Assembly (NCBI RefSeq): GCF_000966265.1
Contig: NZ_LANF01000019.1
Location: 1-64,000 of the forward strand
From: Palaeococcus ferrophilus DSM 13482
Lineage (GTDB): Archaea > Methanobacteriota_B > Thermococci > Thermococcales > Thermococcaceae
DNA length: 64,000 bases
Reading direction: 5' to 3'
Positions 12,989 to 26,647 of the stretch are shown in pieces; the first letter of the stretch is position 1, and each line of letters opens with the position of its first letter. The notes below the pieces were generated by a model. It saw only the letters and a list, made by a program, of their open reading frames with translations, made no database searches and was not told the origin of the DNA. The translations under genes were made by a program, and so were the position numbers.

Positions 12989-13686
12989 GGCTCGTCTCCT
13001 TCGACGTCTGGAACACGCTCCTCGACATCGGGGTTATGCTCAGAGCCCTTTCCGATGAGCTCGCCAAACTTACGGGGATTGATAACGCGGACGAGGGCGT
13101 AAAGGCGGCCAGAGAGAGGATAAAGCGGATGAGGGCGGAAACTGCCGGCGACCCTTCCAGGGCCCTGGAGGAGAGCCAGGAACTCCTGGCTGAGCTCCTT
13201 GGGATAGACGTCGAGCTTGTCAAGAGGGCTGCCGCGAGGGCGGTTCTGAAGGTTGGAGACGAGATAGTCCTCTCAGGGGCGAAGGAGGCTCTGGAGGGAG
13301 TTAAAAAGAAGGGCCTCAAGGTCACCGTCACAGGGAACGTGATGTTCTGGCCCGGCTCCTACACGCGCCTCCTCCTCGAGCGCTTTGGGCTTATGGACTA
13401 CATAGACAAGACCTTCTTCGCCGACGAGGTTTTAGCGTATAAGCCCATGAGGGATATGTTCGAGAAGCCGCTCAGGGTTTTTAATGTGGCGCCCGAAGAG
13501 GCCGTTCACATCGGCGACACGAAGGCGGAGGACTTCGAGGGAGCTTTGAGGGCTGGAATGTGGGCCGTCTGGATCAACCCGGAAGCGGAAGGGGTGAGAA
13601 GAATCCACGAGCGCGGCTTTGAGGTGCCATCAGTTGAGGGAATTCTGGAGGTGCTGGGGGAGATAGAAAAAGAGAAAACTTCTTGA
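12985..13686 (+). CDS. HAD-superfamily hydrolase
   Basis: A 233-residue haloacid-dehalogenase fold hydrolase with cap domain. Motif I is FDVWNTLL with nucleophile Asp7, motif II TVTGN, motif III the Lys in YKP, motif IV GDTKAED. The second Asp of the usual DxD is Trp, as in the dehalogenase-like branch, so the substrate may not be a simple phosphate ester. A similar Thermococcus onnurineus protein has been described as a HAD phosphatase (recalled as TON_0338). It starts with GTG overlapping the end of the TOPRIM gene by four bases. Confidence 0.85.
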
Positions 13687-13691
13687 TGTTT

Positions 13692-16600
13692 TCACTTCTT
13701 CCCCTTCGGCTTTAACCACGCTCCAAGCCCAACCTGCCTCGTCTTCTGGTAGCGCAGATCCTCCTTTCTATAGCCGAAGGCCTTTAGAATCCTCTCAACG
13801 GCCGGCAGAACCTGGTTCTCGATGTAGTATTCAGCGTCGTAGCGGTGCTTGGCCGGGTCGAACTCGTCGAAGGGAATCGCCCTGTCGCCTATCCTTCCAG
13901 AGCCCTTGAGGACTATGTAGCTGATGACCGTCCCGGGGCGGATTTTGACGCCCCTCGCGGCTAACCTCTTCGCTATCGCCACGTGCGGGCCCGTTGCCTT
14001 GTAGTCCTTCAGCTCGCGCGTTATCTGCTCGTGGATAACGAGCTTCTCCGGCGGAACCTCGTACTTGCTCAGCTTCTCCGTCACTTCTTTGACTATGCTT
14101 ACGGCCTCCTCAACGTTACCGTCCTTGAGAAGGGCCTCAAGAACCCTCGCCTGAGTCTCCTTGGCTATCTCGCTCCAGTCACGCCTGACTATCTCAAGCC
14201 CGCGCGTCGTTATCTTGCCCTCCTCGTCTATCACCGCGTACTTCTTCTTGGTGACGAAGAAACCGCGCCTGTAGAAGCCCTCGTACTCGAGCTCAAGCGC
14301 ACCTGGGAGTTTGGAGTTGATATATTTGAGGAACTCCATGGCCTTCTTTTTGATGGTCTCGGCATCTTCTCCTGGTATCGTCGCGTGGAAACCGTCCGTG
14401 TCCGCGTAGAGGACTTTAAAGCCGTATTTCTCTTCTATCTCCCGTATGCTCATTTCGATGTACTCCCTTCCCCAGGCGGTGACGCTCTCGGCGCACTCCT
14501 TGCAGTACCAGCGGGCCCTTGCGTAGCCGTAGTAGCCGTAATAACTGTTGTGAGCATAGACCAACCCAAAACCAACGAGGAAGTTCTCGTTGTCTTCGAC
14601 GCTCAGGTCGTAGACATAGCCGCTGTATTCCTCAGCCTCAACGGACTCAACACGGTCAAGCACTAGATCGCCATTAATGAGCCAGGAGAGTTTTTGGGCC
14701 TTTTCATAATCGAGCTTTCCGCCTTCAACCATCTTCCTGAAGGTCTGAGGACTGACGTTCTTCTGGAAGACCTTCTCAAAGATCTCGCTCAGGACTTCCT
14801 TGGGGATCACGTGCGAATAGTAGGCGTTCTTTTTCTTGTCCAGCTTTACGAACGGGAGCGCCTCGTTTATGTAAACCCTGTAAACGCTGCTGTCGTGCCC
14901 GAGCTTTACGGCCGAAACTCCCACAGAGTTCAAGAGGAGGACGAGCTGGTTGGCCAAAAGCTCGCTCTTCGTGGAGAGCCTGAGCCTTTTGCTCGGGTGG
15001 ACGTCGCCATCGCCGATGAAGTACCCCTCAAGGAAAGCCATCCTAACCCCTGTCGGAGACGTGAAGATGAACTCTGGAACCATCTTGTTTTTCGCCAGAA
15101 CACCGCAGAGGCTCTCAAAGAGCAGGTAGCCCATCTTCCTCGATATTTCAACGTAGTTCCGGCCTTTTCTAACCTTTCCAAAGAACCTCTCAGCGAGCTT
15201 CCCCATATCGTTCAGTACTTCAGGGTCTTCGTTGTAGAGCTTCACGCTGTAGCTCCAGCCGTTTTTGGGATTTCTCTGCTTTCTTGCATAGCCCTCGCTC
15301 ACATAGTAGCCGAGGAGCTTTGCGAAGGACTCGTCAACCTCCACAAAAGGACTCATTCTAAAGCCGTTCAGCGTTCCAATTCTCCACTCCTTAAGCTCTT
15401 CCGGGGGAATTAGGCTTACCACGTCCCGGATGGAGTTGAACTCAACGAGGTACTCTCTCTTGTTGCCGTTGTATCTGATTTTTTCGACAAGTGCCTCGTA
15501 GAGCCTTCTGTATTTCCTAAGTGCCTCCCAGTCAAGTACTTCATAGCCTATCTTCTTAAGCCTGACATAACCCAGATCCTCAAGGTGCTTGAGATAACGC
15601 CTTGCTGTCCTTGGCCTTTTCTCCTCCCCAAAAATCCAGCGCAGGGTTCTAAGCATTCCTTTAAAGAAGTTCTTCCGCTCTTTGACGGGAATTGTCATAA
15701 CAATGTCTGACGTTTCGTCCTCAGGGAATCCGAGGAGAAGCTCCACGAGGTTCAACACGTGGTTTCTCTCCGGAAGCTTCACCCTCCGCGGGACTGCAAC
15801 CAGGTCGCCGGGCTTGAGTTCATCCCCCGTGACCTCAACGAGCTCCCCGTTTCTCACAGAGAAGAGGCTGTGGCCAGAGGTTATCTTTATTCTCCTCCCA
15901 GACTTCAGTTTTATGTTGTAAGCTTTGCCCGAATAGCGGTGCCTGATTAGGGCCTTTACCCTCTTAAGCTCGGCCTTCTTCGTTTCCCTGTTGAAGGATT
16001 GGACTTCAAGACCACTGACTTCAAGGATTTCCGTTTCCCCTTCCCTATGCACTCTTTCAGCGTTTTCATCCATTTTCCAGTCTATGAACTCCCCAATCCT
16101 GACGAAGCGAACCGTCCCGTTTTCAATAATGGGAAGCCACTCGTCGGGAAGAATACTGTTCGCCAGGATCTTGATTGCCCGCTGCCTGTAATCGAGGAGC
16201 CTCCTCTCGATCGGGTCAATAGTGGCCTTCATCTTCCTCTTTATCTTCTGCCTCTCCTCCAGAAGATCTCCGAGGAGGCTAGGAATGAAGCCCGGGAAGT
16301 CCTTGCAGAAGCGGTGGCCGACCTGAGGAGCCACATCGTACTCCTTGCATCCCTCTCTGTTGAGCGTATCCGGCGAGACGTTGTGGGTGATTATTATCGA
16401 GGGATATAACGATTTGTAATCTAGATACACTATGTTCTCCCAAAGGCCCTTCTCCGGCTCCTTCACGTAGCCGCCAGCGTATCCGCCGCGCCTCTCGTCG
16501 TACTCCCTTCCGGAGGGCTTGTTTGGGGCCAGTTCGTTCCTCTCGTAGGCCTTCCGAAGGAGGAACCACTCGACCAGATTGCCCGTGCTGGAGCGCGAGA

Positions 16601-17630
16601 CGTCCCAGAGGGGCTGGCCGATCAAACGGGAAAGCTGGGCCTCCATCGGGAAGAACTCCTTTCCCAGCTCGTAGGTGACTTTGGCATCCTCCATTGAGTA
16701 GCGAGCGACCCTCTCAAGTCCCTCGTTGGTTTCCCAGGCTTGAGCTATCTCCTCCGCGTAGACCTTCTCCTTCGGCCTTCCAAATATCGCCTCATAGACG
16801 GCCTCAAGCGTGTAGGTCGGCAGGTTTATCGTCCTTCTTATCACGGGATAGAGATCGAAGTGTATCCTTCCCTTCACATCGACCGCAAATCTGTCGCCCA
16901 TCCTCTGGATCTTCGGCTCGCTCCCATCCCTTCCAAGGATGAACTTCACCCCGAGCTTTTCGCAGCGCTTTTTTAGATAGGCGAAGTCGAAGTTGTCGCC
17001 GTTGTAAGTTATGAGAACGTCCGGGTCCTTCTCCTTCACGACCCTCAAAAAGGCCTTTATCATGTCTTTTTCGGTTGAGACGGCATCCACGTAGGGGAGG
17101 TCAACCTTCTTCCAGGTGATGACGCGAGCCTCACTTTCGTCAGCGTAGCTTATCATCAGAATGGGTCCCTCGGCGAACTCCTCGCCCTCGTGATAGAGCG
17201 TCTCGATGTCGAAGGCGAGCATTTTCAGCTCCTCGTCCCCCTCCATCGGAACCAGGCCCTTGTCGATGAGGTATCTCTTCGCGAAGGGTATGTCGTACTC
17301 GTAGATGTCCACAACTGCCGGATGGCTCCTTATCTTATCCCTTATGGCCGGGACGTCCTGTGGATGGGTGAAGTAGAGCTTCCACACTTCAACCGGCCTG
17401 CCGAGAAACTTCCTCTCCACCTTCTCGGCCTTTGTAATTCTCACCACCGTTCCGTGCCTCTCGGCGGTTATCTTCTTGATTTCTTCAATCGCGGAGTCGT
17501 CCTTCAGGAGGGCGTAGATGTAGGGCTCAAAGTTTCTATCGTACTCAACCTTGAACTCGCCGTTCTCCTTCTTGAATATCCTCACGACGGGCTTTCCATT
17601 CTCGGTTATGTAGTCAGCATCGAGGATCAT
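13692..17630 (-). CDS. pol: Family B DNA polymerase, intein-containing precursor
   Basis: A 1,312-residue precursor that should splice to a 775-residue replicative/repair polymerase with 3'-5' proofreading. Exonuclease motifs are [23 protein letters not shown] and [13 protein letters not shown]. Polymerase motifs are [14 protein letters not shown] (A), [14 protein letters not shown] (B, interrupted) and YADTDGF (C). The precursor is interrupted after Asn491 by a 537-residue intein. I chose the ATG at 17630 ([14 protein letters not shown]), which matches the family start; a GTG three codons earlier overlaps the ribosome binding site. It is convergent with the HAD gene, six bases apart. Confidence 0.97.
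14547..16157 (-). mobile_element. Intein in DNA polymerase motif B (pol-b site) with LAGLIDADG endonuclease
   Basis: Residues 492-1028 of the precursor form a 537-residue intein. It begins with Ser1 (SILPDEW), has block B TSGH, and ends YDLSV...VYAHN followed by Ser of the host. Two LAGLIDADG motifs, [10 protein letters not shown] and [11 protein letters not shown], keep their acidic residues. Length, site and sequence resemble the PI-PspI/Tli pol-1 allele as I recall it. Nothing in the splicing or endonuclease motifs looks broken, so it may still be able to home. Confidence 0.95.
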
Positions 17631-17725
17631 CGTGGACACCGGGTATGATTACGATGGACGGCCTAATAAACTTCTCTCTATGAGAACATTCCATCCAAAA
17701 CGGCCAAAGGTAAATAGAAAAGGGC

Positions 17726-18157
17726 TCAGAGGTGCGCGATTGGCGTTTCGGCACCGCAGGCCTCACACTTGAGGTAGTGGAAGCGCCCCTTCTTGATGAT
17801 CTTCGTATCCGGAGCTCCACAGACGGGACAGATGACGAACTCCTTGAGGTACTTCTTGAGCTTGTTGCTTATCAGGTATGGCGTAAAGCGTCCCTGGAGG
17901 ATTACCCTCCTTCCCTCTATGCTTCCCGCCGTTGCGACCTCCCTGAGGACGAACTTGAGCAGGTGGTTTGGGTCCCTGTTCATCGCCTCGGCTATGTCCA
18001 TGAAGTTCTCGATGATCGTCCTGCTGCCGGCTATGGTGACCTGCGCGGGCGGAACCTCAAACCTCGAGCCGTGGTGCTTAACGTTCTCCGGGAGCTCTTC
18101 GTAGGCCTTCTCGAGGAGCCCCTCGTAATCGTAATAGTCAATTTCCTTCTCAACCAT
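17726..18157 (-). CDS. Translation initiation factor aIF2 beta subunit
   Basis: The beta subunit of archaeal initiation factor 2, which brings initiator tRNA to the ribosome. The 143-residue protein has the N-terminal helix binding gamma, an alpha/beta core ([22 protein letters not shown]) and a C-terminal zinc ribbon (Cys110, Cys113, Cys131, Cys134). GGGAGGTGAAAGGA precedes the ATG at 18157. It lies 13 bases after the MCM stop, so it is likely co-transcribed with gins23 and mcm. Confidence 0.96.
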
Positions 18158-18170
18158 TCCTTTCACCTCC

Positions 18171-21100
18171 CTATGCTACACGGTAATAGCCATCCCTTGG
18201 GCTATAAATTTGACCCTCGTTAAAGAGTCTCTCGACGATCTTCCTGACCTCGTCTTTATTCATACCCTTTTCAGTGGCTTCCTTTATAATATCATCTATT
18301 GCCGCCCCGTGCTGGCTGCCCTTCTCGAGCTGCTTTATTATTCCGATCACGCGCTCTATCTTGTTTATCTGCTTCGAACTCCTCCCCACCTCGAGGACTG
18401 ATATGTCGAGTTCCCCGCTCTCGTCCCTCGCTATCTGGCTCAGGGTGTACTCTACGAGCTCTATCGCTTCCTTCGCATCTTCCCTCGTCACCACGTCGCT
18501 GAGGCGCATTCTGGCGTGGGCCTCACTGAGTCTGATCAACGCCTCCAGCTGCCTCGCGGTTATTGGCATCGGCTTTACTTCCTCCTCGCCCTCTGTCCTG
18601 GGGCGCCTCTTCCTCATCTTGACGTAGTAGCGCTTTATCTCCTCCATTGCCTCTTTGCTGAGCACGGGGTGGACGTTCTTCCTCGCGTAGGCGATGTACT
18701 TTTTGAGGAGGTCATAGGGCACCTTTGGCGTAACGACTTCCTTCTCGCCGCGCCTCACCTTGAGGATGTGCTCCGCTATGGCCGCATCGGTCTCCTCGTC
18801 CGGCTCGTCAAGGAGCACGAAGATAAGGTCAAACCTCGATATGAGCGTTGGTGGAAGCTCGAGCTGCTCGGGCAATGGCTTTGCCCTGTTGAAGCGGCCG
18901 TACTTGGGGTTTGCCGCTGCCAGAACTGTCGTTCTAGCGTTTAATGTTGCCGTAATACCTGCCTTGGATATGCTGATCGTGTTGTGGAGAACCAGCCCAT
19001 GGGAGACGAAGAGGTGGTAGGGCTCGACGGTTACGTCGTAAACCCACTCCCAGCCGGTGTTTGGGATTTTCTCGACCCTCTTCACCTTCAGGAAGTTCAC
19101 GTTGCCCTTCCACCATTCGAGGAACCTGTTGAGTTCCTTTCTGGCCATTGAGGCTCTCTCCTCGGCTGCACTCCGTACCACGCCCAGCGCTATGGGGTCG
19201 CCGGCTTTCACGAGCTTCCTGAGTTTTCCATAGGTTATACCGTACCTCTGGTATACCCACGTCTTGGGCAGGAGGTCAAGGGCCCTCGCGGGGTTCTCGT
19301 GGGGCAGCTTCTCGAGCTCTTCAAGCCTCTCCAATACCCTGCGCAGGTACTTCTCAATGGTGCCTCCCTTCACGACCCTCTGGTTGAAATCGGCGCGCTC
19401 CTTTGGGGTCTGGGTTACCCCGAGTATCCTGCCGGCCCGCGTTAGGGGCTTCACAAGTTCCTTCGGTAACAGGCGCTCCCCATCCACGACCTCGTAACCG
19501 TTGGCATAGCGCTTTAGCTTTGAGAGTTTCCCCGTGGAGTAGGTGTAGTCGTGGTAGTCCTCCGCTTCCCTCAGATCCTTAAAACGCGCTTTGAACTCTC
19601 CCTTGAGCTCGATGGGGTATTTGAGGACGCCGAGGGCTATGTCCCCGGGCATGACCTTCTCCGCTGGCTCCTCCCTGATCTCACCGTCTTCCCACACCAT
19701 AACCGGGTGCTCGGGCGTTACGACTATCTCCCTACCATTTGAGAAGCGGAGCCTCACGAACTCCCCGGGAGCTTTATGCCTGCTCACGCGGTCGGCCTTT
19801 ACCTTAACTATCTCCTTTTTCTCCAAGTCGTAAGCTAAGAGCTCAATGTCGTCAACGGGCAGTATCTCCGTATCCTTACCGATTATAACCCTGTCGCGGT
19901 TCCTCTCTATGAGTTCATCAACGAGCTCCCCTATCTTCACCTTCCTTCCATCGGCTAGGAGGAGCTCAAAGTCGTGGTGGTAGCTCTGCTGCTCGAGGGC
20001 TTCGTGTATGGCGCTCCTGTCGCGGTCGCTCATCTTGTCGAACTCGTCAACGCAGTTATGAACGATTATCCCCTCGGCGATGAAGTTGTGCTCTCCCGGG
20101 ACGTAGAGGTCATAGACATACCCCTCGTAGGGCACGCGCTCAATGGAGATGATTTCATCAAGGAAATAATCTCTGGTAGCGAGGACTTGGAGTTTTACCA
20201 GCGTTTCTGGAGGTATCAGTTCTCCGATTTTTTCAATTGTCCTCTTCAACTGTATTCTGCTTGGGAAGTACTTTCCTTTTGCGTAGGCATAAACCGTGCT
20301 CCATAGTCCCGCATTCTGGAGCACTGTTGATGGTACTGACTCGATGATCTCCTTCGCTATCGTCCTCACAGGATTCGCTGGGACTTTATCACTTGAAGAG
20401 GACACCATATGCTTCTTTTCCGGAAGAGTTTTTGTCTTGACGCTGTAATCCTTAACGGCCATTAAAAGGTTTTCAACGTCTTCCCTTCCGGTTATCCGTA
20501 TTTTGTTCACTCCTTTTCCATGGACAACCTTTGCGTACACGTCAAACCTGCGGAGTAGCATTGCAAACGCACTGTCTCTTTTCTCGTCATTGGAGAGCAG
20601 GAACTCGATGTGGACAACTTTTCCTCTCTTACTGCTCTTTATCGAGACACAGCCGTCGGAATCAAGAGCACCAGCTATGAAAGCTTTTAGGGCTTCGTCG
20701 TCCAGGGAGAACGCGTTCCTCAAGTAGTTTCCTGTGATGTACTCGTGCAGGAAAGCTAGGAGGGGCGAACTAATGTGGAACGTTATGGACTCACCGGCCA
20801 CTTTAACACCACTAACTTCCCCTTCCGTTCTCCTCTCGTACTCACGGAGCGGCTTTCCGTAGAAAGAATAGAACGCTTCTCTTATTCTCTCTATCTGCTC
20901 TTTGTGAACTTTTGACTGGACTATCCTCACGTGGACTTTCGAACCCTGCTTTGATATCCACCCATCGCCGTAGAGGAACCCAATGAAGTACGCCAGCTCC
21001 GGTGTTATGTATGAAACTTTAAAACGTTCCCTGCGGTAATTTGGACCATATGTGAGCGGACGCTCTCTCCATGTCTCATAAACGCCAAGGTCTTTTAGAA

Positions 21101-24100
21101 TCCGTCTGAACCTCTCCACAGTTATTGAGCCCTTACCCGAGAGGAAATCCTTTGAAAGGTTGTATTTTCTGTTGAACTCTGCAAGACTGCTGTAGTGTTT
21201 GAGTACTTCTCTCTTCAGCTCCTCTTTTTCTCCCTTCGTGAGCTTTACTTTCCAGTTCTCGGGCAGTATGTCGAGTATGTAAACTTTGGACTGGTTGCTC
21301 GGTAGCTTTAGGGGTGCGACTATCGTATCCCCTTCCCTGAACTTCTCGGCCTCTTTCCACTCTAGCGTGTTTCCGTCTATAAGAAGGTGGTCGGGTGTTA
21401 GGGTTATCTCGTTGCCTGAGCGTAGCTTTAAGCGGATTAAGTCACCATTCCACGGCTTCCTGCGGATTATTGTGGCTGTACTCTCCCTCGTCCGCATGGT
21501 GGGTAAATCAAGAGCTACTACTTCCATGCTCTTCTCCTGAATGTCCACAATCTTGTTGCCGGAGCGCGCTTTGTATGACTTTTGGAGCTCAAATAGATCC
21601 TCTATGCGCTGATATTTTCCATCCACAAGGACACGGGAGTCGGGATGGAGACAGGCAAAGCCGCCATCGGCCAAAACAAGAACACCCGCTTCCAGCACCC
21701 ACGAGCCCGTGAGCTCGTCTCTCACCGCTGCGGCGGTGTTGTGGACAACGAAACCGTTGGCCACGAAGCTGTGAGAACCTTCGACGGTGAGGTCGTAGAC
21801 ATGCTCGTAAGGGCTTTTAATTTTCTCAACCGCTTTGACCTTCTCAAATATGAGATCTGAATCGGCGATTTTCCTTAGGAACCAAACTTTCTCCTGCATC
21901 TCATTTTCCCTGGCTGCAACGTCGCTGAGAATCCAGGCAAGCTCCCTATGAGCTTTTTCGTCCCTATCCGCGAGAAGTCTTGCTACCTTAACGAGGAGTC
22001 CGTACCCTATCGCCCTGCTCCTCTTTCTCTTGAATAACTCGTAGAACTCCCCCTTCCCAAGTCCAAGCTCCTCCGGCTCAAGGATATTGCCGATCCTGAG
22101 CCTGAGTTCGTCGGGCAGGTTGACTGGAGCATCCTCTATCCTCGCTTTTTCGAGGTTTGAAACGATTTTTTCAAGGAGCTTTCTTGAAATGCTCTTACCT
22201 TTCTCGACTGCCGAGCCTACGTTGGAGCCGTAGACCTCCTCGATGCTCAGTCCGTAGAATTTCCTTATCTCCCGAACCACTTCTCCAACTCCGGGGATTA
22301 CGTCAACGTTGGTGTCCCTCCTCGAGCCGCTCAGGGCATCAACGAGCCTCTCGAGCTTTTCCTTCTTCTCCGGATGTTCAAAGTCTATCTCTTCGGCAAA
22401 GCGAAGGGCGTTCTCTCCGTATATCTTGAGCTCCCACCTGTCGTGCTTGGAGACAACTTTTTTGCCGTTTATCTCGCTAACTTGTCCCTTTCTGTCCCTC
22501 CTCCTTAAATGTGAGACGATGCCAAAGCGGAGGAGGGCAAGCTGCAGCTTCTTAGCCAGCTTCTCGCTCGTGGTGTCGAACTCGATGTAAGAGGACCCGT
22601 TTTCTCTCAACACCACAGTGCCGTCGCAGTCGAAGAGTCCCCTGATGTAAGCGGCTAAAACGTTCTTGGGTGCCGTGAAGAGCAGGGGGGGCATGTCCAA
22701 CCTGTTCGACTTCGGGGAGGGTGGAACACCGAGCTTTTCAAGAATGTGTGCGACGATCTTTGAGTGGAAGCGCACCGCAGGAATTCTTCCCTTTTCCTGG
22801 CTTTCTTTGGCCTCGATTCCGAAGAGGTTTCTCGCAAGTTCCTTGAACCTCTCCCTCATCTCTTCACTGCTGTTGGAGAACCTCACTGACACTCCCCACC
22901 CAGCCTTGGAGACATCGCCGTCTCCAGCAATGAGCCCAATGAAGTATGCGAGCCTCTCGTCAAGGGTTTTTGGTACCTTGATTCTCTTTCCGTCCTGAAG
23001 TGCAACCTCGCTGGGATAAAGTGAGATGAGCGGTTCATCGGCCAGCTTGGCAAGCTCTCTCAGATGCTTCATTGTGATGTTGCCCCAGGCCTTCTCGTTC
23101 ACCCAGTTGTAGTAGAGCATGTTCTCACTAATTCCGAGGGTTCTGGAGAGTTCCCTCTTTGTAATGCCCTTTTTCCGAGTTGCTTCCTCTATCAGTTGCC
23201 TCACGTCTTTCTTAATCCCGTAAAGTACAAGGTCATCCAGGTCACTGAGGAGTTCCATAACGTAAACTAGTTTTTCCTTCACTTGGAGCTCCCTCAGCGT
23301 TACAACGTAGTCCCCTTGTTTGAGCTCTTCGGCTTTCTTCCACTGGAACGCACCGCTGAAGGTGAGGAGCTTGGTCTCTGGTGTTGCCGTTATATCTTTC
23401 CCTGTGATTGTCTTCACTTTAACAAGTTTCTCAGGGGCTTTCAGTTTCCAGACCCTGCTCATTACGGAGCTTTTAACTTCACCTTTCTCGGGCTCGAGAG
23501 AGATGCCCTCCCCAAGATATGGGGCATGTAAGATTCCTTCGGAGTACTCGATGTGTCCGACTTCTTTCACCCAGTCCTCGACAAGGGGTCCAATTTCGCG
23601 GATACCGCCGTCGGCAACCACGAGTGAATCCGGCGCAACACATAGACCAGCCGCCGATGAGCTCTTTCCCGATGTGTAAATCGCCCTCGGCGCTAAATTG
23701 GCAACATAACGGAGAATCTGGCTGTTGTGAACAAAGATATCGTTTGCTATGAAGTTGTGGTGATCTGGAACCTGAAGGTCATAGATCCACGGGTGCTCTG
23801 GCGTGTACTCTTCTATCTCTTCTACTCTGTCCCAGAATATGTCGGAGCTGGCGAGGAGTTCAAGGATTCTAACATCGTTCGAGTTTGGTAAATGTGTTTT
23901 GAGAGTTTTGGCTATAACTACGAGCTTTTCTCTGCTGGGCAACCTGTCTCCCCGTTCGTAATGCAGATAAGTGGAACGATTTATACCCATGTCCTTTTGG
24001 GTAAGCCCCGCTCTCATCCTGACCTCCCTAAGGGGCTTGCTCACGCCCGGGACTACGTCAACATTCGTGTTGGATTTGATATTCCGGGTCACTTCCCTAA

Positions 24101-26138
24101 GAATCTCCATCTTTCTCCGAAGTTCGAATCCAATGACATCTCTGAACTTTGCTGCATCCTCTCCGGTAATGAAAAGCCGGTAATATGTCTTTTCCTCTTG
24201 CATCTTTCCGTTCGTTGCTTTACTTTTAGTCTCGTGTAATTGGGACTTTATGCCAAACCGCAGTAGCAGGTGTTGTATACCCTTGACAAGTTCTTTTGAC
24301 GCTGAAACAACCGTTATCTTTGGTCTTCCTTTGTCCACAGTTCCTTCGGCATCGAAGTATCCTCGGAGGAAGGCCTTTATGTCCACGTCCCTGGCACTAA
24401 ACAGTTGAGGTGGAACCTTTTTCTCAGCAGAGTTGCCGGTTATTTCAAGCCATTCAAGGAGATCATAAAGTTCAATGCTGGATGCATAAACCTCACTTGC
24501 GGTCTTTCCTTTGTGGGGGCTTCTCACAGTTGGATCAAGCCCAATCTTGATCAGATATCTGCGAACCGTCTCTATAAGCTCTTCCTCGTTGTTAGTGAAG
24601 TAAAGGGTTGCACTACTACCTCTTTTTTGGGTGTACCCCTCTCCCGTAATCAATCCAACAATGTACCAGAACTCTTCGTCTGCGAACTCTGGAAGTACTA
24701 GCCTGCTCTTTACAGTCTTTGGTTTTTGAATGGGTGCCCCACTGAGGTTTACTGGTTTTCCAGTTGCAGGAATAACCCTCGGAACTGCAATGAAATCCCC
24801 TACTTCCAGCTCTTCCGCTTTTCTTGTCCTGAAGACTCCCTCCTCAAAGACGAAGAAGGGGTGCGTGGGCGTTACCTTTATTTCCCTCCCACTTGCGGTC
24901 TTTATCCTGAACATTCTCTCCGGGGCTGTTCTCTTCCATGCGATGTTAGCTTTAACCTTTCTAACCTTCAGCGTTGATGCATCGAGTGCGTAGATTTCGA
25001 TGTCTATGGGTGCATAATAGCCGTCGTCAACGACTTCGAGGGTCCCCTCTTTCTTAGCCTTCTCTATGGCCTCCTCAACGAGCTCTCCAATGGGCCTAAT
25101 GCCGCCATCTGCCAGCACAACTTTTGTGTTGTAATCAACGCACTTTGCTACTCCCGGATCTCCAACCAAAAGAACGTGGCTCTCCCCCCTCAGCTTCGTC
25201 CCGTCGGGAAGGGCCCTTTGAACCCCTCCAAAGAGGGCCAAAGCTATGCCCTTCTTGACCTTCTCGTGGCCCCATATGGCTGGAGCAATGGACTGGACGA
25301 TAGCATCCACCACGTCCTTCCTCTTGGCGAGCTCCCTGATCTTCTGCTCGTCCTCCGGGGAGATTTCCAAGTCTTCCACGTCCTTGCTGATGTGGTCTAT
25401 GTGGTTGACCTCGAGTATCTTGCGGAAGATGGGCCTCTTCTCCTTGCTGTCCATTATGACCCTCAAAACCCCCGTGACTACCACGCGGTCTCCGGGGAGG
25501 GAAACGTCAACGAGGTCGTCGAGGAGTATCGCATCAACAAAACGCGGCATCTGGCCACCCTTGAGGCTCTCGGGCCTGTCCTGGAGGCGGAAGGTCTGGA
25601 GGTTCATAAAGCGACTCTTTTCAACGTCTATGTCGAGGTTCTTGCTTCCGCAGTTCTCACACCTCGGGGGCTTCACCATGGGGGCGTAGGGCTTCTGGAG
25701 CCGCGTCATCTCGTGACCGCAGTCCCTGCACACGAAAACGGCCTTCTCGACGAAGGGCTTCACCTCGCTTATGCGCGTGATGATTCCATCAACCTGAATG
25801 AGCCTGTTTATGTGCTCCGCGCTTATGGTCTTGACGAGGAGCGTCTCGGGGAGGTTGTAGAAACGGGGGTGAAGGGACATCTCTTCCCCGAAGTCCTGCT
25901 CGAGAACAACCCTGATTGCATCTTCCGCCGCGAGGAGGGCCTCATCGGGGTTCTCAATGAGCTCCTGGGCGAGGGCAGAGTTTATGCTGTTCAGGTGGGC
26001 CCAGTCTATATCGAGGGACCTCTTGGGGATTATCGTGAGAAGGTCGTTTATCTTATTCATATATACTTTCTTACCCTCGCTGTCGGCGTAGGAGCGTATG
26101 AACTCAATGAACCCGGCTATCATCTCATCCCTTTCCAT
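18171..26138 (-). CDS. mcm: MCM replicative helicase precursor with four inteins
   Basis: A single open frame of 2,655 codons encodes minichromosome maintenance helicase interrupted by four inteins (473, 635, 533 and 335 residues). The spliced protein is about 679 residues, normal for archaeal MCM. The N-terminal domain has a zinc site (Cys137, Cys140, Cys160, Cys163). The AAA+ motifs are Walker A GDPGVAKS, Walker B CVDEFDKM, sensor [10 protein letters not shown] and the arginine finger LISRFD. A winged helix closes the C-terminus. Start 26138 is preferred because GGAGTGAT precedes it; an ATG at 26144 overlaps the gins23 stop. Exteins are intact in frame, so all four inteins must splice for function. 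Confidence 0.96.
18981..19985 (-). mobile_element. MCM intein 4, inserted after EALEQQ, no LAGLIDADG motif
   Basis: Residues 2052-2386 (335 residues). It starts Ser1 ([15 protein letters not shown]), has block B TPEH, and ends YDVTV...LVLHN before host Thr. Between the splicing halves are roughly 185 residues without any LAGLIDADG motif or other endonuclease motif I recognise; the segment is helical and charged. Base composition is closer to the host gene than that of inteins 1 and 3. It is either an endonuclease decayed beyond recognition or an unrelated insert. Confidence 0.9.
20055..21653 (-). mobile_element. MCM intein 3, inserted at Walker B (GGFA^C)
   Basis: Residues 1496-2028 (533 residues). 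It starts Cys1 ([13 protein letters not shown]), has block B TPDH, and ends YDLYV...IIVHN before host Cys of [17 protein letters not shown] motifs are [10 protein letters not shown] and [10 protein letters not shown], both with acidic residues. The region is notably A/T-rich relative to flanking extein. Confidence 0.93.
21738..23642 (-). mobile_element. MCM intein 2, inserted after SSSAAGL
   Basis: Residues 833-1467 (635 residues). It starts Cys1 ([13 protein letters not shown]) and ends YDLTV...FVVHN before host Thr. Block B reads ATPETKLL, so the usual His of TxxH is missing. LAGLIDADG motifs are [10 protein letters not shown] and [10 protein letters not shown]. Two further segments look like helix-turn-helix units: one before the endonuclease ([20 protein letters not shown]) and one after it (around [15 protein letters not shown]). 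It is the longest of the five inteins in the window. Confidence 0.92.
23724..25142 (-). mobile_element. MCM intein 1, inserted in Walker A (GVAK^S)
   Basis: Residues 333-805 of the precursor (473 residues). It starts Cys1 ([14 protein letters not shown]), has block B TPTH, ends YDLQV...IFVHN, and the next host residue is Ser. LAGLIDADG motifs are [10 protein letters not shown] and [11 protein letters not shown] helix-turn-helix resembling XRE/Cro repressors ([15 protein letters not shown] then [14 protein letters not shown]) follows the endonuclease, probably an added DNA-contact module. Base composition is more A/T-rich than the exteins. Confidence 0.94.
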
Positions 26139-26143
26139 TACCA

Positions 26144-26638
26144 TCACTCCTCACCCAGCCACGCGTTTCTTATCTTGGACATCTGGAGGTAAAGTTCCTT
26201 CTCCTCCGGTGCGAGCTTGTTGAGGACCTCCAGACTCGCAGGGCGGAGCATCACCGCCTTGAGTATCTTGTTGAAGCGGAGCCTCTTGAGCTCGTGGTAC
26301 TTCTCCCTAAGGTTGGCGAGCTTCGTTATGTACGCCCTGAGGGTCTCGGCGGGATAATCCGAGGGGTTCTCGAGAACCTTGCTGAGGAAGTAGATGTAGA
26401 ACTCCGTCCGGTCATACAGAACCTTGTCAATGCTCGATAGGGGTTTGTTCTCCCTCTCCTCCTTGATGTAGTGGTCGAGCTCGATTATAACCTTCTCGAC
26501 CTCGTCAATAACCTCAACTATGCCGCTCTCCCAGAGCTCCTTCGCCTTCCAGTCCTCTATCAGTATGATATCGCCGGCCCGCCAGTCTCCAAAGGGCTGG
26601 AGCACCTTTACGGGAATTGAAGCCCTACCCACAAACAT
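26144..26638 (-). CDS. gins23: GINS complex subunit Gins23
   Basis: A 164-residue subunit of the GINS complex, which activates MCM in the CMG-type replisome. The small beta B-domain comes first (VGRASIPVKVLQPFGDW...AGDIILIEDW) and the helical A-domain follows, the order typical of archaeal Gins23 rather than Gins51. It lies directly upstream of mcm with stop and start overlapping, the arrangement known in Pyrococcus and Sulfolobus. The ATG at 26638 follows GGTGAG; a GTG three codons earlier falls within that site. Confidence 0.88.
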   Translation of the reverse strand: MFVGRASIPVKVLQPFGDWRAGDIILIEDWKAKELWESGIVEVIDEVEKVIIELDHYIKEERENKPLSSIDKVLYDRTEFYIYFLSKVLENPSDYPAETLRAYITKLANLREKYHELKRLRFNKILKAVMLRPASLEVLNKLAPEEKELYLQMSKIRNAWLGEE

Positions 26639-26647
26639 TATTCTCAC

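Follow-up and report, generated by a model that had tools for sequence, protein, structure and literature searches.

Four inteins, CDC21/MCM-a to -d, are present in the AAA+ core of the replicative MCM helicase of Haloquadratum walsbyi (Q18E84, 2216 aa; PMC3972481, PMC10643990). We analyzed an mcm gene that likewise carries four inteins in its AAA+ core, located in a 64,000-nucleotide stretch of the genome of the deep-sea archaeon Palaeococcus ferrophilus DSM 13482 (Thermococcales; contig NZ_LANF01000019.1, positions 1 to 64,000; hereafter, the window). Its insertion sites are designated a (GVAK^S), b (AAGL^T), c (GGFA^C) and d (LEQQ^T), and sites a and b occupy the same positions in H. walsbyi and Thermococcales. 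The haloarchaeal inteins have been placed at Hvo positions 335, 362, 401 and 415 (PMC3972481), with one site preceding residue 401, between R or D and S (PMC10643990). On a mapping that uses the published positions and a one-residue insertion in an alignment of a haloarchaeal plasmid MCM, 335 corresponds to site a, 362 to site b, and 415 falls within a residue or two of EQQ^T (site d). Because the Hvo 401 site (DELDKM(R/D)^S) lies about 9 residues past GGFA^C, site c appears not to be among the four haloarchaeal sites.

Inteins at two of these sites are also known from other Thermococcales. Tko CDC21-1 of T. kodakarensis, whose mcm has inteins at b and d, occupies site b and, like intein 2 of the window, lacks the block B His and has a basic residue at the Lys58 position (PMC4031507, PMC7765530), but is only 140 aa long, whereas intein 2 contains a full endonuclease and reaches 635 aa. 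The Pab and Pho CDC21-1 inteins (PDB: 6rpp, 6rpq) share site a and the fold with intein 1 and are its best PDB matches; they are, however, mini-inteins of 164–168 aa without an endonuclease (PMC6801210), in contrast to the 473-aa, endonuclease-containing intein 1.

We consider it very probable that the P. ferrophilus gene encodes a self-splicing four-intein MCM assembled by separate horizontal invasions. The precursor of about 2655 aa would splice out its four class 1 inteins and leave a 679-aa helicase of the usual kind. Inteins a, b and c appear to contain functional LAGLIDADG homing endonucleases able to copy the inteins into empty mcm alleles, and intein d would have lost its nuclease. The four sites would have been gained and lost repeatedly across Thermococcales, so that the four-intein set would represent neither an inherited nor a selected unit. 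In this account, the anatomy and motifs of the inteins, their same-site relatives and the non-vertical trees of inteins a, c and d are direct observations, to which we add, as what we infer, actual splicing, endonuclease activity and the order of invasion.

Anatomy of the gene and its inteins

The gene and its exteins and inteins are arranged as follows.

18171..26138, (-) strand: mcm gene from the ATG at 26138; 2655 codons plus stop, comprising a 679-aa replicative MCM helicase and four inteins
25143..26138, (-) strand: extein 1, 332 aa; N-terminal domain, zinc motif and Walker A up to GDPGVAK
23724..25142, (-) strand: intein 1, site a (GVAK^S, Walker A), 473 aa; HINT domain, LAGLIDADG endonuclease (IVGLITGEG / LRGYFDAEG) and helix-turn-helix domain; block B TPTH
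23643..23723, (-) strand: extein 2, 27 aa
21738..23642, (-) strand: intein 2, site b (AAGL^T), 635 aa; HINT domain with block B TPET (no His) and LAGLIDADG endonuclease (FIGLIAGDG / IRGLFDCDG)
21654..21737, (-) strand: extein 3, 28 aa; helix-2-insert region to the Walker B strand
20055..21653, (-) strand: intein 3, site c (GGFA^C, Walker B), 533 aa; LAGLIDADG endonuclease (FIGFLYGDG / IAGALDSDG)
19986..20054, (-) strand: extein 4, 23 aa; CVDEFDKM...EALEQQ
18981..19985, (-) strand: intein 4, site d (LEQQ^T), 335 aa; Ser1 HINT domain without LAGLIDADG motifs, with a mostly helical endonuclease-insert remnant of about 180 residues
18171..18980, (-) strand: extein 5, 269 aa plus stop; presensor hairpin, arginine finger and winged helix

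The mcm frame is uninterrupted (18171..26147, minus strand; 2658 codons, no internal stops) and lies on a 377-kb contig. Counted from the ATG at 26138, the exteins joined by junction parsing amount to 679 aa; an in-frame GTG upstream, at 26147, which overlaps a GINS-like gene, would add 3 codons and give 682 aa. A first-pass annotation, made from the letters of the window alone, had proposed four inteins of 473, 635, 533 and 335 residues in the AAA+ core and a spliced product of about 679 residues, and was right on junctions, lengths and product alike. Its estimate that three quarters of the coding sequence is intein agrees with the measured share (1976 of 2655 codons, 74%), and the two sites that it placed on nucleotide-binding motifs, a and c, do fall inside Walker A and Walker B, respectively.

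With the inteins removed, the protein matches PF00493 above the cut-off, contains the AAA+ motifs and can be aligned over its whole length with the MCM of the sister species P. pacificus, which has no inteins (82% aa identity). Full-length orthology, the AAA+ motifs and the adjacent GINS-like gene identify it as the archaeal replicative MCM. An assembly artefact, which the first-pass annotation had named as a possible source of the frame, is very unlikely because relatives of each intein occupy the corresponding site in 27 to 46 other species and because the ratio of nonsynonymous to synonymous substitution rates (dN/dS) is about 0.04–0.12 in inteins 1 and 3. Three more MCM homologues, all intein-free and 31–38% identical to the window MCM, are encoded elsewhere in the P. 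ferrophilus genome (C15:24226-26124, C18:32332-33981 and C13:114297-116222). A lipase encoded in this genome is identical over 257 residues to PDB 6qe2, which is probably the P. ferrophilus lipase structure described in PMC8065475 and makes the assignment of the host to P. ferrophilus very likely.

All four inserts match the models of the intein N-terminus (TIGR01445) and C-terminus (TIGR01443) above cut-off, as well as Pfam Intein_splicing at 1.5e-20 or better. Inteins 1 to 4 begin with C, C, C and S, all end with HN, and are followed by S, T, C and T at the +1 position. By these terminal residues and model matches, the four are assigned to class 1. The block B TxxH motif is present in inteins 1, 3 and 4 (TPTH, TPDH and TPEH) and replaced by TPET in intein 2. 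Two DOD motifs with intact acidic residues are found in each of inteins 1, 2 and 3. For inteins 1 and 3, for which dN/dS was computed, the pairwise values of about 0.09–0.12 in the endonuclease parts argue that these endonucleases are functional or were so recently.

Intein 4 differs from this pattern: searches by hidden Markov model and by motif found no LAGLIDADG match in it, and its splicing domain alone was matched by the models. Alignment with relatives of 506 residues shows that most of the LAGLIDADG block is missing and the C-terminal helical part is kept. A confident AlphaFold2 model (mean predicted local distance difference test score 91.5) consists of a HINT fold, a small alpha-beta remnant and a helical bundle, and matches known inteins in the PDB.

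MCM inteins across Thermococcales

MCM genes were mapped in 94 Thermococcales genomes, and the counts given here rest on the 76 complete genes, the window gene included. Inteins are present in 68 of these, at sites a, b, c and d only (47, 34, 28 and 43 genes, respectively): 8 genes contain none, 51 contain two or more, 24 three or more and 9 all four. At identical junctions, the all-four state is thus found in the window and in 8 of the 75 other species surveyed (G075, G015, G041, G046, G050, G051, G055 and G062). The window has the second-highest intein content of the 76 (1976 aa, compared with 2053 aa in G075), and most of the other four-intein MCMs hold two to four shortened inteins. The window MCM is a well-formed, near-maximal example of an already known series.

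These numbers do not uphold the rarity of the four-intein state implied by the first-pass annotation, which is further undercut by the H. walsbyi MCM tabulated in 2014 (PMC3972481). The annotation had considered that its view would fail if four-intein MCMs at the same sites were common in the genus. Such genes do occur in relatives at the level of the order; within Palaeococcus, which, rather than Thermococcus, is the host genus, the other complete genome, that of P. pacificus, has all four mcm sites empty. As natural clusters of inteins in an essential gene go, this one comes close to the maximum, and its three apparently intact homing endonucleases belong to inteins at sites within 55 codons of one another. 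Together with the 76-gene site map, it provides a system in which to ask whether neighboring inteins move alone, in competition or together.

Only two pairs of sites, both adjacent, are positively associated: a–b (odds ratio 4.2, p 0.008) and c–d (odds ratio 3.6). In a test on phylogenetically independent pairs, the median p was 0.039 for a–b and 0.18 for c–d, and only the former stays suggestive. A strong excess of four-site genes is not claimed, given 9 observed against 4.4 expected under site independence, a comparison in which relatedness is not fully controlled.

On the host tree, the states of sites a, b and c change as many times as shuffled labels do, whereas site d changes less often (3 of 500 shuffles reach its value); the abcd state arises at scattered positions, with 8 changes. 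This turnover bears on the reading of the inteins as a regulatory device, in which the unspliced precursor is inactive and splicing could gate the supply of helicase under stress. Insertion at a and c splits the Walker A and Walker B motifs, forms without an endonuclease persist at conserved length in many species, and conditional splicing is known for other replication-protein inteins, for example mycobacterial DnaB, as indicated in PMC7360933. However, 8 of the 76 genes, that of the sister species among them, do without any MCM intein, and a turnover of occupancy at a, b and c that matches random labels is more in keeping with parasites than with a switch that is maintained. We therefore regard retention for regulation as very unlikely.

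Origins of the window inteins

In the extein tree, the window MCM is sister to that of P. pacificus, and the next branch out is G093, the nearest intein-bearing relative of the window, which carries inteins at a and c. Intein a of the window sits in a fully supported group that includes inteins of another genus, with one of which it shares 83.6% DNA identity (67% at third positions), compared with 65.6% (36%) for the exteins. For intein c, the DNA identity is 78.9% against 71.9% for the exteins. In the tree, intein c groups with those of G068 and G029 (support 100/99). Approximately unbiased (AU) tests reject inteins a and c as sisters of their G093 counterparts (p 0.00015 and 0.0006) and intein d as sister of that in a metagenome-assembled genome (MAG) of a congener, G002 (p 0.016).

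Descent of all four inteins from a Thermococcales ancestor, with losses elsewhere, would account for the identical four sites across the order. It is contradicted by the AU tests that reject the vertical placement of a, c and d, and by the far greater similarity of intein a to the intein of another genus than is seen between the exteins. For a and c the contradiction is already clear, and intein b is compatible with vertical or horizontal origin alike; as an account of all four, common descent is hardly credible. Intein 1 was likely acquired horizontally, and the window gene looks like a mosaic from repeated horizontal invasion, because, for a, c and d, the sister inteins are not those of the nearest hosts. 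We infer a stepwise horizontal assembly, possibly in adjacent pairs.

Several points weigh against assembly by separate invasions. The AU-tested pairs were picked after the host tree was known, and the test for d used a quick tree with a long G002 branch. For b and d, intein similarity does not clearly exceed that of the exteins, so that an older or vertical origin is possible for these two. The a–b association suggests that the invasions may not have been fully independent. Splicing and endonuclease activity in P. ferrophilus are predictions from sequence, and for intein b, with its block B His absent, splicing is proposed from likeness to Tko CDC21-1.

A variant of assembly by invasion, rather than its opposite, is paired acquisition, with a and b coming from an AB-type donor and c and d from a Cd-type donor, each pair through one long gene-conversion tract. 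The two associated site pairs are the only ones found, the nearest relatives of the window inteins overlap for a and b (G041, G076 and G081) and for c and d (G029 and G068), and the extein segment between c and d has its best match in G029 (91% identity). On the other side, the affinity of the extein core is still with P. pacificus, if weakly (support 81), so that no long imported tract is apparent, intein identities are unequal within each pair, the extein segments span only 23–28 codons, and the c–d association weakens in independent pairs. We consider paired acquisition possible but doubtful. A long imported extein tract was also sought directly and rejected: the segment identities are mosaic-like, but the core groups with P. 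pacificus as above and the sliding-window ranks fluctuate.

Site-specific features and inteins beyond the window gene

Three details of the site families seem less well known: the site-c Cys, the missing His at site b, and the cross-genus similarity of site-a inteins without an endonuclease. Wherever site c is occupied (28 genes), the residue following it is Cys, whereas 46 of the 48 empty genes have Leu or Met there (Fisher p 9e-19, uncorrected for phylogeny). As judged from these sequences, invasion of site c must bring a Cys codon with it, changing the extein +1 residue from Leu to Cys inside Walker B; the correlation implies that homing would replace one amino acid within a catalytic motif of the host. 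A parallel is the haloarchaeal intein site at which Pro is changed to Ser (PMC10643990). The two empty genes with Cys at site c (G014 and G073) may be footprints of intein loss.

Among the site-b inteins, TPET or TSET replaces block B TxxH in 33 of 34 by pattern, and all 34, window intein 2 included, have Lys or Arg at the Tko Lys58 position. In a review from 2014, Tko CDC21-1 is given as the sole active intein lacking the block B His (PMC4031507). Because Tko CDC21-1 splices without it according to the literature, this His is probably not strictly required, and the site-b family would provide many inteins that apparently work without a residue once thought near-universal.

The 185-aa site-a inteins lacking an endonuclease form mostly one clade and are more alike between genera than the exteins are (for example, 83.1% versus 66.2%, or 65% versus 38% at third positions), and for these reasons seem to have moved between genera. 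Full-length transfer followed by independent endonuclease loss is a possible alternative. That mcm inteins without an endonuclease spread between Thermococcales species by hitch-hiking on neighboring nuclease-bearing inteins, the cluster acting as a cooperative mobile unit, is a tentative proposal that we think rather unlikely; published haloarchaeal work describes the opposite, interference between inteins. The site-a intein of L093 (G077), 185 aa long and endonuclease-less, groups with the 473-aa inteins of its own genus although its length is that of the separate mini clade; repeated precise loss and recombination are candidate explanations.

Relatives of intein 4 occupy the same EQQ or EQG junction in MCMs of MAGs labeled Archaeoglobaceae, Acidilobaceae, Desulfurococcales, Micrarchaeota and Diapherotrites. 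In the splicing domains, identity to Thermococcales sequences reaches 81%, whereas the exteins are 43–51% identical to the window MCM, which points to transfer of site-d inteins between phyla; the taxonomic labels of these MAGs may contain errors, but an origin of the exteins outside Thermococcales is clear. The MCM frame of L156, a Desulfurococcales MAG (2098 aa), has inserts at Walker A, GGIA^C and EALEQQ^S, so the c and d sites of Thermococcales appear to be used outside the order too. The Walker A insert of L156 seems to begin with Ser.

Two genes directly flank mcm.

26144..26647, (-) strand: GINS-like gene directly upstream, with a 4-nt overlap with the mcm GTG; Gins23 model at 8.6e-14, below that model's cut-off
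17726..18166, (-) strand: aIF2-beta gene directly downstream (PF01873, 1e-37)

The family B DNA polymerase gene (13692-17639, minus strand), two genes downstream of mcm, has one intein, inserted before SYYGYYG, which brings the two genes to five inteins within 12.5 kb. In all, the P. ferrophilus genome has 15 matches to the intein N-terminus. The RFC small subunit gene (G000:C5, about 13000-17400, L159) contains three inteins, and further matches fall in DP2, RNR, reverse gyrase, TopA, a QueE-like radical SAM gene, an RtcB-type gene and a secretion-type ATPase.

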